DNA from: Streptomyces nigra
GTDB lineage: Bacteria > Actinomycetota > Actinomycetes > Streptomycetales > Streptomycetaceae
Direction of reading: 5' to 3'
Assembly: GCF_003074055.1 (NCBI RefSeq)
Contig: NZ_CP029043.1
Location: forward strand, 3,278,501 to 3,342,500
Length of the DNA stretch: 64,000 nucleotides
Below are positions 25,834-33,172 of this stretch, piece after piece (position 1 is the first letter of the stretch; each line of letters starts with the position of its first letter). Made by a program: the position numbers and the translations under genes. Under the pieces are notes generated by a model that worked only from the letters and a program-made list of their open reading frames with translations, was not told where the DNA came from and ran no database searches.

Positions 25834-27264
25834 TCACGGGGTGTCCGTCGCCTCCGCCAGGTCCAGCGCGGAGGCGATGCGCACCGCCACGTCCTCCGCG
25901 TACAGGGCGTCGCCGCGCTCGAACGCGGTCCGGCCGGCGCCGCGCAGGAACGTCACGACGCCGAGGGTGCGGCCCCGGCTGCGCAGCACCGCGCACAGGG
26001 CGTACACCGCGTCCGCGGGCCACTGCCGGCTCACGGCCCAGGCGCGCGCCCGCTCGGGCGGCACGTCACCGGCCGCCGCCCGGACCGAACCGGCGCGTGC
26101 CACGCACTGGAGCGCCGGGTGGCCCTCGCCGTAGCGCACGGGCAGGCCGGCCTCGCCGCCCAGCCGGGAGGGGCCCGGGGCGCCCGACGGCGTGACCGCG
26201 ACCCGGACGAGGCGAACCGGGTCCGCGGCCTCCGCGTCCCGTACGGCGCCTCCCGCGACCCGGTCGATCAGGGCGTGGTCGGCGAAGCCGGCGAGCGCGA
26301 AGTCCAGATGGACGGTGGCCGCCTCGGCCGGGTCCTCGCACTCGGCCGCGGCCCGCGCCGCGCGGTGCAGCTGGTTGGTGCGGAACCGCAGCAGCGCCGC
26401 CTCCTGCTCGGTCTGCTTGGCCGGGGTGACGTCCTGGAAGAACCAGCCGACGCCGAGCGGCACCGGCTCCTCCGCGAGCGGCGAGGCGAGCCGGACGAAC
26501 CCGCACCGCCAGCAGCGGCGCCGGTCGCCCTCCGGGGTCCGTACGCTCACCCAGATCTCGGCCGGGGCGGGCGGCGCGCCCTCCGCCAGCACATGGGTGA
26601 GGGCGCTCTCCAGCTCCTCCACGCCCTGGGCGAGCACATCGCCGAGCGGCCGGCCGAGCACGGAGGTCCGGCCGATGCCGAGCGCCCGGGCCGCGTGCGC
26701 GTTCACCACGGCGGGCCGCAGGTCGGCGTCGACGAGCACCACACCCCACGACGCGTCCTCGAAGAGCGCCTCGCTCAGCGCGATGGAGCGCTCCAGGTCG
26801 ATCTGTGTGTGCACCTCGCTGAAGGCGCAGTACACCCCGGCGGGCTCGCCGTCCGGGCCGCGCACGGCGGCCGACTGGGTGCGCACCAGGACCCGGCCGC
26901 CGTCCTTGGTCAGCAGCGCGAACTCGTGCACCTGGCGGCCGGGGGCCCGCATGGCGGACATCAGCCGCGCCTCGACCTCCTCGGCGTCCGCCGGCCGCAC
27001 CGCCCACCCCGCGAAGCCGTGCCGGCCGACGGCCTCGGCGGCGGTCCAGCCGAGGATGCGCTCCGCCTCGCGGTTCCAGTGCGTGAGGACGCCGTCCGCG
27101 TCGAAGGCGCACAGGGCGGCGTCCATCCCGTCCAGCAGGGCGGCCAGCAGATCGGACCCGCCCGCCGAACCCTCGGCACCGGCCGACGACTCGTCCGGAC
27201 CGTCCCGCTCGGGTTCGTCCGGTCCCAGCTCGTCGGTGGTCCCACTACGCCGGGAAGCACTCAC
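25834..27264 (-). CDS. PAS-PAS-GAF sensor protein without output domain
   Basis: 476 residues. After an acidic, Ser-rich N-terminus there are two PAS domains (about 45-150, with THWNREAERILGWTAAEAVG, and 165-285, with VVNAHAARALGIGRTSVLG). A GAF-like domain (about 300-470) follows. The protein stops there, without the PP2C phosphatase or histidine kinase usually found after this array in Streptomyces. It may work by protein-protein contact or be a truncated sensor. No membrane segment. GTG 27264 with GGGGGTCC upstream. Ligand unknown. Confidence 0.75.
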   Translation of the reverse strand: MSASRRSGTTDELGPDEPERDGPDESSAGAEGSAGGSDLLAALLDGMDAALCAFDADGVLTHWNREAERILGWTAAEAVGRHGFAGWAVRPADAEEVEARLMSAMRAPGRQVHEFALLTKDGGRVLVRTQSAAVRGPDGEPAGVYCAFSEVHTQIDLERSIALSEALFEDASWGVVLVDADLRPAVVNAHAARALGIGRTSVLGRPLGDVLAQGVEELESALTHVLAEGAPPAPAEIWVSVRTPEGDRRRCWRCGFVRLASPLAEEPVPLGVGWFFQDVTPAKQTEQEAALLRFRTNQLHRAARAAAECEDPAEAATVHLDFALAGFADHALIDRVAGGAVRDAEAADPVRLVRVAVTPSGAPGPSRLGGEAGLPVRYGEGHPALQCVARAGSVRAAAGDVPPERARAWAVSRQWPADAVYALCAVLRSRGRTLGVVTFLRGAGRTAFERGDALYAEDVAVRIASALDLAEATDTP

Positions 27265-27391: not shown

Positions 27392-27886
27392 TCATCCTGC
27401 CCCGTCGGGTCGCTCCAGCCGCAGGTCGACCCATACGTCGGCGGCTCCGTCCAGGACGTAGCGGTCGGTCTCGGCGAACCCGCGCGCGTACGCGAACCGC
27501 AGCCCGTCCTCGTTGACCGCCAGCACACAGGTCTCGACGGCCCGGGCGCCGAGCGCCCGCGCGTGGGCGAGCCCGTCCGCGTAGAGCGCCGTGCCGTATC
27601 CGTGGCCCCGGTGTCCGGGGAGCACGCGCGCGATGACCGTCGCGACGCCGTCCTCGCTCCGCGGCGGACGCACGGTCGAGCAGCCGACGAGGACGTCGCC
27701 GACGTACGCGTTGCACAGGCGGTTGCGCCCGGCGCGCTCGCGCACCTCGTCGAGACTCAGGGCGGCGGGCGGCACGATCACGTTGTGGACGTGCCTCCAC
27801 TCCTCCAGCGCCGTCTCGCCGTCCACCGGCACGATCCGCGGCTCCCCGCCGAGGATCGCCCTCCCTGCCCCGCCTCGCTCCGTCAT
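27392..27886 (-). CDS. GNAT family N-acetyltransferase
   Basis: 164 residues, one GNAT domain. The acetyl-CoA-binding motif A is VLPGHRGHGYGTALY near residue 89, and the LRFAYARGFAETDRYV motif B region follows. It transfers an acetyl group from acetyl-CoA to an unknown amine. ATG 27886 has TAGCGT exactly 7 nt upstream and no SD, indicating a leaderless transcript. Confidence 0.87.
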   Translation of the reverse strand: MTERGGAGRAILGGEPRIVPVDGETALEEWRHVHNVIVPPAALSLDEVRERAGRNRLCNAYVGDVLVGCSTVRPPRSEDGVATVIARVLPGHRGHGYGTALYADGLAHARALGARAVETCVLAVNEDGLRFAYARGFAETDRYVLDGAADVWVDLRLERPDGAG

Positions 27887-27948: not shown

Positions 27949-27977
27949 TTGAGCGACGCCGAAGCGGTTCCTAGGGT
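27949..27977 (+). promoter_or_regulatory. Promoter of a small plus-strand transcript
   Basis: TTGAGC (27949-27954), a 17-bp spacer and TAGGGT (27972-27977). Start of transcription is expected near 27985. It reads away from the GNAT gene and toward the end of pdxH. Confidence 0.55.
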
Positions 27978-28010
27978 GGGCTGTACTTCGGAAAGGAGGT
28001 GGTTCGGCAG

Positions 28011-28049
28011 ATGTATGCATACCGGACGGAAGAGGTGGCTGCGGGCTAG
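28011..28049 (+). CDS. Twelve-residue peptide ORF MYAYRTEEVAAG
   Basis: ATG to TAG, 12 sense codons, with an anti-SD-complementary AAAGGAGGT (27992-28000) 10 nt upstream, among the strongest SDs in the window. It lies within the candidate small transcript. It could be a leader peptide or a small protein; the downstream structured RNA makes a translation-sensing role conceivable. No following gene on the same strand is close enough to be an obvious target. Confidence 0.4.
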   Translation: MYAYRTEEVAAG

Positions 28050-28127
28050 CGGCCCGTCACCCACCACGTGCGGTGCCGGACCAGCGTGTGAGTGAGACAC
28101 GCAGCCGGCCAATTCCACGCAGTCACC

Positions 28128-28198
28128 CGACCCGCGAGCTCGCCGGTACGTCCGGCCGGCTCCCCCGCCACGGCGGAGGGACCAGAGCTCGCGGGTCG
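28128..28198. terminator. 14-bp inverted repeat, terminator-like
   Basis: CGACCCGCGAGCTC (28128-28141) and GAGCTCGCGGGTCG (28185-28198) are exact inverse complements. The 43-nt interior forms its own GC-rich hairpin. It separates the small plus-strand transcript from pdxH and could terminate both. Confidence 0.6.
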
Positions 28199-28226
28199 CT
28201 GCGTGTCCGGGGCCGCCCGCCGGCGC

Positions 28227-28916
28227 TCACGGACTGAGCCGCTCCACCCGCCAGCCGCCGTCCGGCTCCGCCACGTACCGCAGCCGGTCGTGCAGCCGGT
28301 TCTCCCGGCCCTGCCAGAACTCGACCGAGCTCGGCGCGATCCGGAAGCCGCCCCAGTGCGGCGGCACCGGCACCTGTTCCCCGCCCTCGGGATAGCGGGC
28401 GGCCAGCTCCGCGTACGACGCGTCGAACTCCGCGCGGGAGGCGATCACGGACGACTGGGCACTGGCCCAGGCACCGAGCTGGGAGCCGTGCGGCCGGGTC
28501 CGGAAGTAGGCGGCCGTCTCGTCGCGGCCGGTGCGCCGCGCGATGCCCTGCACGATGACCTGGCGGGCCATCGGATGCCAGGGGAACAGCAGCGAGACGT
28601 ACGGGTTCTCGGCGAGGTCGCGGGCCTTGCGCGAGTCGTAGTTGGTGTAGAAGACGAAGCCCCGCTCGTCGAACTGCTTCAGCAGCACGGTGCGCGAGCT
28701 GGGGCGGCCCTCGCCGTCGGCCGTGGACACGATCATGGCGTTCGGTTCGAAGAGGTGGGCCTGTGCGGCGGCCTGCCGGAACCAGCGCGCGAACTGTTCC
28801 ACCGGACTCGCGGCCAGATCGTGCTCGGCGAGGCCCTCGGCCCGGTAGTGCTTGCGCATCGCGGCCGGGTCGAGTTCGGGCGCCGCGGGATCGAGGGAGG
28901 CGTCTGGGTCGGTCAC
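28227..28916 (-). CDS. pdxH: Pyridoxamine 5'-phosphate oxidase PdxH
   Basis: 229 residues. The FMN-binding region is [20 protein letters not shown] and the C-terminal signature is [17 protein letters not shown]. It oxidises pyridoxamine or pyridoxine 5'-phosphate to PLP with O2 and FMN in the cytoplasm, completing the salvage route. GTG 28916 is chosen: CAAGAT lies 6 nt upstream, there is no SD, and the resulting length is normal. Serine synthesis (serC, 20 kb away) uses the PLP product but is not linked in an operon. Confidence 0.94.
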
Positions 28917-29288
28917 GCGGTCATCTTGCCGTATGAGGGACGCGCCCCCGGGGACGGTGCCCCGGACCGGCTTCCCGGCACCGACGGCGCCCGGACCCGC
29001 TCTCGCGGCACCCGCTCCCTGGCACTGAGTGCCGCGAGACCTCCCCAAGAGTGACACTCGGGGATATCGTTCGGATGTGGTCCGGGCCGGATGACCGCCC
29101 GGCGCACGGGGCATCACAGGGATACGCCCCGGACCGCGAGTCCGACGAGGCCCGCCGCACCCGGACGATCCGGGCGACGGGTCCGTGACCGTGGATCCGC
29201 CGGGGGCGCGATCCCCTTCTTCACCGGCCGCACGAGTGTCGTCCCACCCACAACACCATCCGTCGCATCCATCACGAGGAGCCGCCTG
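28917..29288. other. Intergenic region, 372 bp, pdxH/citrate synthase divergent promoters
   Basis: A TATCGT hexamer at 29065-29070 could be the -10 for the citrate synthase gene, giving a leader of about 210 nt. No convincing -35, operator or coding frame was seen. Confidence 0.45.
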
Positions 29289-31838: not shown

Positions 31839-32450
31839 TCAGCCCAGGGCCTCGTCCAGCAGCCGGGCCCACTGCGCCACCACCCGGGCCCGCCGTCCGG
31901 TGTCGTCGGTGAGCAGATTGGCCAGGCCCAGGCCGCGGGCCATGTCGAGCAGGCCCTGCACGGTCTCCCGGACGCCGGGCCGCGACTCGTCGGCGTCCAG
32001 CAGGTCCACCGCGATGCGATGGGTCTCCCGGCCGACGCGGGCCTCCAGCTCGGTCACCCGGGGCCGCAGCTGGTCCTCGTCGGACGCGGCCACCCACAGA
32101 TGCAGAGCGGCGCGGAACAGCGGACCGGTGTAGAGGTCGACCAGGGCGGCCACCACCGCGTGACGGTCGGCGCCGCCCTCGGGGAAGAGGGCGCGCAGGG
32201 CGAGGGAGCGCTCCTCGGCGACGTACTCGACGGCCGCCGTGAACAGGTCCTCGCGGGTCGGGAAGTGGTGCTGGGCGGCGCCCCGGGAGACGCCGGCCCG
32301 TTCGGCCACGACGGAGACCGTGGAGCCCGCCCAGCCGTGTTCGGCGAGGCAGGCCACGGCGGCCTCCAGCAGCCGCTGCCGGGTGACGCGGCTGCGGTCC
32401 TGCTTGGGCACGCGGTCCACCCGGTCGCCGGCCGTGCTCACACCACCCAT
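31839..32450 (-). CDS. TetR-family regulator, last gene of the atu-like operon
   Basis: 203 residues. The N-terminal HTH (TRQRLLEAAVACLAEHGWAG ... GVSRGAAQHHFPTREDLF) is typical TetR, followed by a helical ligand-binding domain. The start overlaps the hydratase stop: ATG 32450, or GTG 32441 giving a GTGA overlap. It is the only regulator in the operon, so it most plausibly binds the GCAAGC-GT-GCTTGC palindrome in front of the first gene and is released by an acyl-CoA. Autoregulation would follow from its position. Confidence 0.9.
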   Translation of the reverse strand: MGGVSTAGDRVDRVPKQDRSRVTRQRLLEAAVACLAEHGWAGSTVSVVAERAGVSRGAAQHHFPTREDLFTAAVEYVAEERSLALRALFPEGGADRHAVVAALVDLYTGPLFRAALHLWVAASDEDQLRPRVTELEARVGRETHRIAVDLLDADESRPGVRETVQGLLDMARGLGLANLLTDDTGRRARVVAQWARLLDEALG

Positions 32451-33172
32451 TCCGGATCCCGTCTTTCGAGGAAGGCCGTCATCCCCTCACGGGCGTCGGA
32501 GGAGGCGAACAGCCGGGCCGAGAGCGCGGTCAGTCCGGCCGCTTCCCGGTCGAAGGTTTCCAGCACCTTAGCCGCGAGCAGCGCTTTCGTCTCGGCGAGG
32601 GCCTGGGGGGCGGCCCTGCGCAGGCCGTCCAGGACGGGTTCCAGTACGGCGTCCACGTCGTCGCCCTCGTCCGTGAGCAGGCCGATCCGGGCCGCCTCGG
32701 GGGCGGTGAACCGCTCCCCGGTGAGGTAGTAGCGGGCCACGGCGCGGGGGTCCGCGCGGGGCAGCACCGGCAGCGAGATCACCGCCGGGGCCACCCCGAT
32801 GCGAACCTCCGTGAACGCGAAGGTGGCGGTGCGGGCGGCGGCCGCGATGTCGCAGGCCGCGAGGAGCCCGAGGCCGCCCGCGCGGACATGGCCGGTGACG
32901 CGGGCGACGACGGGTTTCGGCAGGGCGACGATCGCCCGCAGCAGCGCCACCAGCGCGTCCGGGTCCGGCGGGTCCCGCAGGTCGGCGCCCGCGCAGAAGG
33001 TGTTCCCGGTGTGGGTGAGCACGACCGCGCGCACGTCGGGGTCCTTGCCGCACTCCTCCAGCGCGTCCGCCAGCCCGCCCACGAGGGCCGCCGACAGCGC
33101 GTTGCGGGTGTCCGGGGAGTCGAGGCTCAGGGTGTGCACACCGCGCGCGTGGGCGCGGCCGACCATCGTCAT
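32438..33172 (-). CDS. Enoyl-CoA hydratase/isomerase (crotonase family, AtuE/LiuC-like)
   Basis: 244 residues. The crotonase oxyanion segments are NTFCAGADLRD and VRAGGLGLLAACDIA. It hydrates an alpha,beta-unsaturated acyl-CoA; in atu or liu pathways this is the glutaconyl-CoA-type product of the biotin carboxylase. ATG 33172 overlaps the ligase stop (ATGA), with GAAGGAGAG upstream. Its position fits isohexenylglutaconyl- or methylglutaconyl-CoA hydration; the substrate is inferred from context only. Confidence 0.88.
   Translation of the reverse strand: MTMVGRAHARGVHTLSLDSPDTRNALSAALVGGLADALEECGKDPDVRAVVLTHTGNTFCAGADLRDPPDPDALVALLRAIVALPKPVVARVTGHVRAGGLGLLAACDIAAAARTATFAFTEVRIGVAPAVISLPVLPRADPRAVARYYLTGERFTAPEAARIGLLTDEGDDVDAVLEPVLDGLRRAAPQALAETKALLAAKVLETFDREAAGLTALSARLFASSDAREGMTAFLERRDPEWVV

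Follow-up and report, generated by a model that had tools for sequence, protein, structure and literature searches.

Genomic context and identity of the RNA

We analyzed a stretch of 64,000 nt from Streptomyces nigra (hereafter the window; GCF_003074055.1, contig NZ_CP029043.1, positions 3,278,501–3,342,500 of the forward strand). A small RNA on the + strand, with the features collected in Table 1, lies between a GNAT gene (27392–27886) and pdxH (28227–28919), both Pfam-confirmed and both on the − strand, so that pdxH is convergent with the RNA and the GNAT gene lies upstream of it on the opposite strand. The nearest Pfam-identified gene on the + strand encodes citrate synthase (ORF from 29091), at least about 0.9 kb downstream. 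This arrangement agrees with the original prediction, made from the sequence alone, which had placed the transcript between the GNAT gene and pdxH and had seen no gene downstream; none does adjoin it downstream on the + strand. The GNAT gene is itself adjoined by a gene for a PAS-domain protein (25834–27264, −).

Table 1 Features of the RNA locus (window coordinates).
Feature	Position	Strand	Basis or remark
Promoter: TTGAGC (27949–27954), 17-nt spacer, TAGGGT (27972–27977)	27949–27977	+	Sequence; TANNNT comparison
Whole RNA (RF02471, Ms_IGR-5)	27985–28204	+	cmscan; start probably about 27984/27985
P0, 5′ strand, CTTC	27986–27989	+	Covariation
Extended Shine-Dalgarno	27990–28008	+	Pairs with the 16S 3′ tail over 19 contiguous positions, G-U included
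Mini-ORF MYAYRTEEVAAG, 12 codons	28011–28049	+	ATG 28011–28013; stop TAG 28047–28049
PK, 5′ strand, GGACG (ORF codons 5–6)	28024–28028	+	5′ extension possible to 28022
P0, 3′ strand, GAAG (ORF codons 7–8)	28029–28032	+	96.2% of cells paired; double changes in 3/4 pairs
P1, 5′ strand, GGTGGCTGC (ORF codons 8–11)	28034–28042	+	97.8% of cells paired; double changes in 4/9 pairs
P2, 5′ strand (contains the stop codon)	28044–28050	+	Comparison
Variable hairpin GCGTGT/ACACGC	28084–28102	+	Sequence; region poorly conserved in alignment
P2, 3′ strand	28104–28110	+	Comparison
P1, 3′ strand, GCAGTCACC	28119–28127	+	Same A1 helix as the P1 5′ strand
P3, 5′ strand	28128–28141	+	Perfect 14-bp stem, inverted repeat I1; innermost 28140 and 28141 poorly kept
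P3a hairpin (28142–28146/28156–28160)	28142–28160	+	90.1% of cells paired; double changes in 5/5 pairs
PK, 3′ strand, CGTCC	28149–28153	+	In the P3a loop
P3, 3′ strand	28185–28198	+	Pairs with 28128–28141

A cmscan search matched the locus to Rfam family RF02471 (Ms_IGR-5) at 95.5 bits (E 5.8e-21), well past the gathering cut-off of 45 bits and covering the model end to end (1–184 of 184); the source genome (7.64 Mb) held this single match. The folding energy of the RNA was low for its composition (z −4.95), with none of 200 shuffles equally low. These results are best explained by a member of RF02471 that is transcribed on its own, from its own promoter, as an RNA of about 220 nt. The original prediction had described an unannotated transcript spanning 27949–28200. 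The start of that span does hold the promoter, while the RNA itself runs from about 27985 to 28204, and it is not unknown, since the family is already in Rfam and homologues have been reported as transcribed. A PYLIS_2 candidate at 32408–32512 (−) scored 21.8 bits, below its 36-bit cut-off, and was rejected.

According to published work, the Ms_IGR-5 homologue is transcribed in S. lividans as judged by RNA-seq, forms an sRNA transcription unit in S. avermitilis, and overlaps a detected transcript in M. smegmatis. PMC4974804 further reports ribosome protection of the RNA in M. abscessus and in M. smegmatis; its authors caution, for non-coding RNAs generally, that footprints may stem from ribonucleoproteins or other causes. 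We guess that scr4389, one of the S. coelicolor sRNAs named in PMC8388888, is the Ms_IGR-5 homologue. Other sources drawn on were PMC8079986, PMC8780764, PMC10454040, PMC5521070, PMC10654065 and PMC4633059. We found no description of the mini-ORF, the 16S complementarity or the fold of Ms_IGR-5 in the accessible text of the literature searched, to which most subscription journals did not belong. The RNA family is already known, and its anatomy and wider range are new; the anatomy described below is well supported, and the function is what we infer from it.

Distribution of the RNA

In a class-wide draw, the RF02471 model matched 192 of 296 genomes, 28 of them from the window's genus, and 104 genomes had no match; none of the 20 listed among those 104 belonged to that genus. 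The same model matched 40 of 198 genomes in a phylum draw at E 0.001, and none of 14 control genomes, Corynebacterium glutamicum among them. We also searched with R1, a model trained on actinomycete sequences only (the control figure of 0/14 belongs to the Rfam model). R1 matched 74 of the 198 phylum genomes, one match each and 34 of them beyond the reach of the Rfam model, leaving 124 without a match at E 0.001. Furthermore, R1 matched 14 of 99 genomes of a second phylum, that of G479, which is included in the count. The RNA is present in many, not all, Actinomycetota, and is not universal.

The name Actinomycetota for the first group follows record labels and kinship to the source genome. 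The second phylum is probably Acidobacteriota, judging from the labels of L166 and of G479 (Acidobacteria) and from a 16S stretch, GATCCTGGCTCAGAATC, which was found in G574 and was absent from G572 (two 16S genes were found in this phylum); the stretch in G574 presumably represents the ACIDO31F primer site. Two loci with other phylum labels, L138 and L160, resemble Actinomycetota loci, and we take their labels to be wrong. G269 was the only listed genome with two RF02471 matches, and its 5% contamination makes the second copy uncertain. One pattern scan for loci returned at least 119 stretches, with 80 loci among the matches listed. Phage-borne copies were also considered: 15 stretches on viral contigs matched the pattern, but no stop codon lies eight codons or fewer from GAG in any of them, and they were rejected as chance matches.

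Promoter, termination and neighboring genes

The TTGAGC and TAGGGT boxes agree with the consensus at 7 of 12 letters. A TANNNT motif was located 22 or 23 nt upstream of GGAGG in 152 of 192 loci, and TTG was found 14–26 nt further upstream in 88 of the 164 loci possessing TANNNT, which makes the −35 box weaker than the −10 box. Because the TANNNT spacing recurs in so many loci, the −10 box is supported and an RNA start at about 27984/27985 appears probable. A generic scan for promoters and terminators reported neither at this locus. The promoter letters first proposed are present as described, and the −10 box is backed by comparison; the 7-of-12 match and the empty generic scan speak against the promoter.

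No T-run follows the 14-bp stem on its 3′ side in the window. Downstream hairpins resembling terminators with a T-run were detected in 34 of 94 deep-lineage loci, compared with 7 after shuffling, and in 3 of 89 actinomycete loci, compared with 3 after shuffling; since the actinomycete count equals its shuffled count, termination at this position in Streptomyces is something we only infer. In four loci of the second phylum (L267, L271, L272 and L276), a P3-like stem followed by a T-run resembles an ordinary intrinsic terminator. The genes around the RNA vary, the largest cluster of flanking ORFs (flanks of 1.5–2 kb) covering at most 37 of 114 loci.

Complementarity of the leader to the 16S 3′ tail

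The Shine-Dalgarno core AAAGGAGGT (27992–28000), already read correctly from the sequence, sits within the 19-pair complementarity to the 16S 3′ tail given in Table 1. The duplex of leader and tail was calculated at −33.5 kcal/mol and ranked first among 42,650 windows (27-nt windows placed every 3 nt along each strand of the 64 kb; mean −11.9, s.d. 3.2). The stretch RAAGGAGGTGNTYC occurs seven times in the source genome: five times antisense to 16S genes, once in the Ms_IGR-5 RNA, and once at 7524550, a site with no 16S end nearby.

Extended, start-proximal Shine-Dalgarno sequences are carried by ordinary S. aureus mRNAs, as described in PMC13009471. The likeness to Ms_IGR-5 lies in pairing that continues past GGAGG toward the start codon and, in some cases, in non-canonical starts; the difference is that those are ordinary mRNAs, whereas Ms_IGR-5 joins 19 pairs with the 16S tail to an ORF of 10–19 codons. 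Since ordinary S. aureus mRNAs have such sequences, the extended pairing is physically usable and is no proof of titration or any other special role.

Conservation of the mini-ORF

The 12-codon ORF is present as the original prediction had read it. In all 191 loci counted (L064, which uses another register, was left out), a start-like codon that shares its frame with the stop lies 6–11 nt past GGAGGTG. The window for this count was chosen after the sequences had been looked at, and this and the other locus counts are not independent, as near-identical or identical genomes may be included. Canonical starts (ATG, GTG or TTG) numbered 123 in frame, compared with 6 and 1 in the other two frames, or 8 and 8 when the window was widened by one base on each side (5–12). 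The remaining 68 of the 191 loci start at CTG, ATC, ACG, ATT or ATA. Near-cognate codons were counted 82 times in frame and 22 times in each of the other frames, and because such codons arise by chance in other frames, the canonical starts bear most of the weight.

The stop codon falls exactly five codons past GAG in 188 of 192 oriented loci, as TAG (151), TGA (23) or TAA (14). The exceptions are L113 and L202, where it lies one codon further; L166, where GAGGTG occurs twice and the anchor fell on the first; and L064, with its different reading frame. Four loci unmatched by the search patterns (L059, L065, L133 and L198) all have an in-frame start and stop. The ORF is about 10–19 codons long (12–16 and 19 among the 191 loci) and varies by whole codons, and its codons 1–4 have 39% GC, in keeping with an open initiation site.

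More distant loci gave the same picture. All 34 R1-only matches have an in-frame start-like codon and a stop: 29 in the usual register, with 28 canonical starts and one near-cognate start, and five in another register with start and stop both shifted, these being read after the first pattern had failed. All 14 second-phylum matches have a Shine-Dalgarno sequence, an in-frame ATG or GTG, and a stop five codons past GAG. The other-register loci (L064, L292, L297, L299, L318 and L322) come from two families; the first five retain the letters GAGGTG and read them as GGA GGT, and L322 has no GAGGTG. Because these loci hold a common frame for start and stop, the frame is seemingly kept independently of the GAGGTG motif. 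As far as comparison of sequences can tell, the mini-ORF is conserved as an ORF, its start and stop sharing a frame in both of the groups, each ranked as a phylum.

The encoded peptide behaves differently from the frame. Changes in codons 2–4, counted over 1,007 close pairs that are not independent, fell at codon positions 1, 2 and 3 in 758, 829 and 779 cases, with no third-position excess. Near the C-terminal end, E and V are kept in 189 and T in 176 of the 191 loci; GG replaces EV in the six other-register loci. These comparisons suggest that the peptide drifts, with no sign of selection on it.

Fold of the RNA

We derived the structure from 89 actinomycete sequences, leaving out L045 (extraction length 0) and L096 (which has an N), and evaluated it on alignment A1, the 77 of these with less than 80% identity. 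The structure was paired in 94.5% of the cells of A1, compared with 84.9% after shuffling and 36–41% when slid; double changes occurred in 27 of 37 pairs, and covariation was 0.318 compared with 0.154 for shuffles. In P3, 13 of 14 pairs showed double changes. A structure-free ranking of covariation on a sequence-only alignment (89 sequences, 77 with less than 85% identity; repeated with a longer tail) placed pairs of P3, P0, PK and P1, including a tenth P1 pair, in all of the top ten ranks. The minimum-energy fold of the single sequence missed both P0 and P1, a result against these two helices, which rest on comparison.

Since the structure was derived from nearly the same sequences as A1, 99 deep-lineage loci offer the better check. 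Here, the top three covariation ranks were P0, P1 and P0, and ranks 4, 5 and 7 were non-structural pairs. The three varying positions of P0 were paired in 98, 97 and 98 of the 99 loci, compared with 72, 65 and 88 after shuffling. The window carries a rare P0, CTTC:GAAG (2 of 77 rows, the other being L012), with both strands changed relative to the usual CACG:CGTG.

PK is the least certain helix. Its strands form inverted repeat I20 in the window, and 94.8% of its cells were paired with double changes in two of five pairs, the outer pair being formed in 57 of the 77 sequences. In the deep set, the outer pair formed in 81 of 99 loci compared with 66 after shuffling, and the next in 98 compared with 93; four of the six pairs tested were no better than shuffles, and the GGAC of PK is present in 2 of the 14 second-phylum loci. 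P2 was paired in 78.4% of cells, with covariation of 0.180 compared with 0.092 for shuffles. The comparative data thus support P0, P1 and P3, and PK and P2 less surely. P0 and PK together would enclose positions 27990–28013 on the 77 sequences, PK with little covariation, which points, less surely, to a loop closed by these two helices and holding the extended Shine-Dalgarno sequence and the start codon.

Rfam describes the same RNA, and P0, P1 and PK are absent from its structure. The 5′ helix that it draws between the Shine-Dalgarno sequence and GCUGCC, at the end of the ORF, was rejected as the main fold: it is pairable in 91.1% of cells, shows no double changes among the 77 sequences, and equals its shuffles. 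The hairpin at 28084–28102 and the perfect 14-bp stem reported at first are both present as described. The proposal of a separate small transcript is partly supported: ORF and stem are both kept in the homologues, whereas their lack of conservation would have told against it. That first reading had overlooked the complementarity to the 16S tail, P0, the pseudoknot, and the P1 helix that joins the ORF to downstream sequence. In deep-lineage loci such as L029 and L173, GCTGGA, located in the P2 region, appears by eye to be complementary to a TCCAGC that follows P3, a possible second long-range pairing.

Proposed function and alternatives

We favor, at about an even chance, the reading that the RNA works by being translated, as a trans-acting sensor of ribosome occupancy or a titrator of translation initiation. 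With a peptide that can vary freely, it should be translation itself that counts, which leads to an occupancy-dependent switch or a 30S titrator. A 30S subunit would dock on the leader through the 16S 3′ tail, and initiation would take place inside the putative P0/PK loop. In the proposed pairing scheme, the 5′ end pairs with codons 7–8 (P0), codons 8–11 pair with GCAGUCACC (P1), and codons 5–6, less surely, with the terminal hairpin's loop (PK), so that the ribosome would have to melt PK, P0 and P1 before reaching the stop in P2. The act of translation, not the peptide, would set the state of the RNA, folded when idle and opened when occupied, and occupancy may bare or hide the 3′ half (GCAGUCACC and the GUCC loop), altering the stability or the partners of the RNA.

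The 3′ half could also be the active part in its own right, if GCAGUCACC or the GUCC loop paired with target mRNAs as in a dual-function sRNA, translation either gating the seed or being incidental. A standalone transcript without a fixed neighbor would suit such a regulator, as would the near-invariance of GUCC and of most of CACC while adjacent pairs covary; yet the inner stretch of this candidate seed varies in step with its P1 partner, which argues for structure rather than for one conserved target, and we consider this explanation somewhat unlikely. Another possibility, which seems to us unlikely, is that the RNA merely sequesters small subunits as a decoy, for example during slow growth, with no conformational regulation. 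The 19 leader pairs with the 16S tail would serve that end, and the putatively enclosed Shine-Dalgarno sequence and start recall the E. coli rpsO pseudoknot and the entrapment described for uS4 and uS15 (PMC10931766); nevertheless, a pure trap has no need of a conserved stop, yet start and stop share a frame.

The remaining explanations are much less probable. A purely structural non-coding RNA, its ORF a by-product of conserved nucleotides, would account for the base pairing of much of the ORF and for the chance frequency of near-cognate starts (22 and 22 compared with 82), but it fits poorly with canonical starts concentrated in one frame, with length shifts in whole codons, with the switching of stop identity among TAG, TGA and TAA, and with the joint shift of start and stop in six loci, and we regard it as very improbable. 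Slighter still is the chance that the locus is a gene for a functional short peptide, a claim that the original prediction had entertained: the ORF is strictly conserved and E, V and T recur near its end, but these residues are encoded by the very codons that form PK, P0 and P1, and the lack of a third-position excess in the drifting codons 2–4 (pairs not independent), together with six loci that read another frame and have GG for EV, makes a peptide gene unlikely. Hardly any probability attaches, either, to a cis-acting leader or attenuator of a neighboring gene. A mini-ORF that is translated and precedes a terminator-like stem does recall leader-peptide attenuators, but the flanking genes lie on the other strand, the next Pfam gene on the + strand is at least about 0.9 kb downstream, the flanking-ORF clusters cover no more than 37 of 114 loci, and hairpins with a T-run are no more frequent in actinomycete loci than in shuffles, the excess being seen in the deep set.

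The favored reading, in which translation itself is the output, can be set beside known systems. In leader-peptide attenuators, ribosomes translating a short ORF compete with helix formation; Ms_IGR-5 differs in having no nearby downstream gene on the same strand in the window that could be regulated, nor a flanking cluster of more than 37 of the 114 loci. SgrS/SgrT and RNAIII are dual-function sRNAs with a short ORF whose encoded product is functional. Ms_IGR-5 shares the short ORF within an sRNA, and its peptide is not conserved, as judged by the conservation test (758/829/779) alone; that the ORF is translated is suggested by the conserved frame, which is evolutionary evidence, and by the published mycobacterial footprints (PMC4974804). 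The E. coli leaders of rpsO (uS15) and the alpha operon (uS4) have a pseudoknot that surrounds or includes the ribosome binding site and lets the 30S subunit enter (PMC10931766). The putative knot around the Shine-Dalgarno sequence and start of Ms_IGR-5 would follow a similar principle, but in E. coli the pseudoknots belong to ribosomal-protein gene leaders that have a protein ligand, and no ribosomal-protein gene follows Ms_IGR-5 in cis (pdxH is convergent and the GNAT gene lies on the other strand). The score places the RNA in RF02471; we make no claim that it belongs with the entrapment leaders or the dual-function sRNAs.

A bolder version, which we hold tentatively and regard as possible but less likely than not, is that this is an ancient RNA of two bacterial phyla whose product is the translation event. 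It would recruit the 30S subunit by almost all of the 16S 3′ tail, have a short ORF of nearly free sequence read across a knotted core, and use its occupancy as a cell-wide readout or limiter of initiation. Such an RNA would be a ribosome-occupancy switch that stands alone and acts in trans, a type of regulator without description in the literature searched. Were occupancy the output, a major antibiotic-producing phylum would own an RNA that gauges translation initiation, and an RNA annotated as non-coding would act through its translation. Apart from function, an orphan sRNA of Streptomyces and mycobacteria has a wider range than the Rfam model suggests and a strict frame with no detectable constraint on its peptide, and the covarying helices identify the base pairs at which mutations would tell structure, frame and peptide apart.
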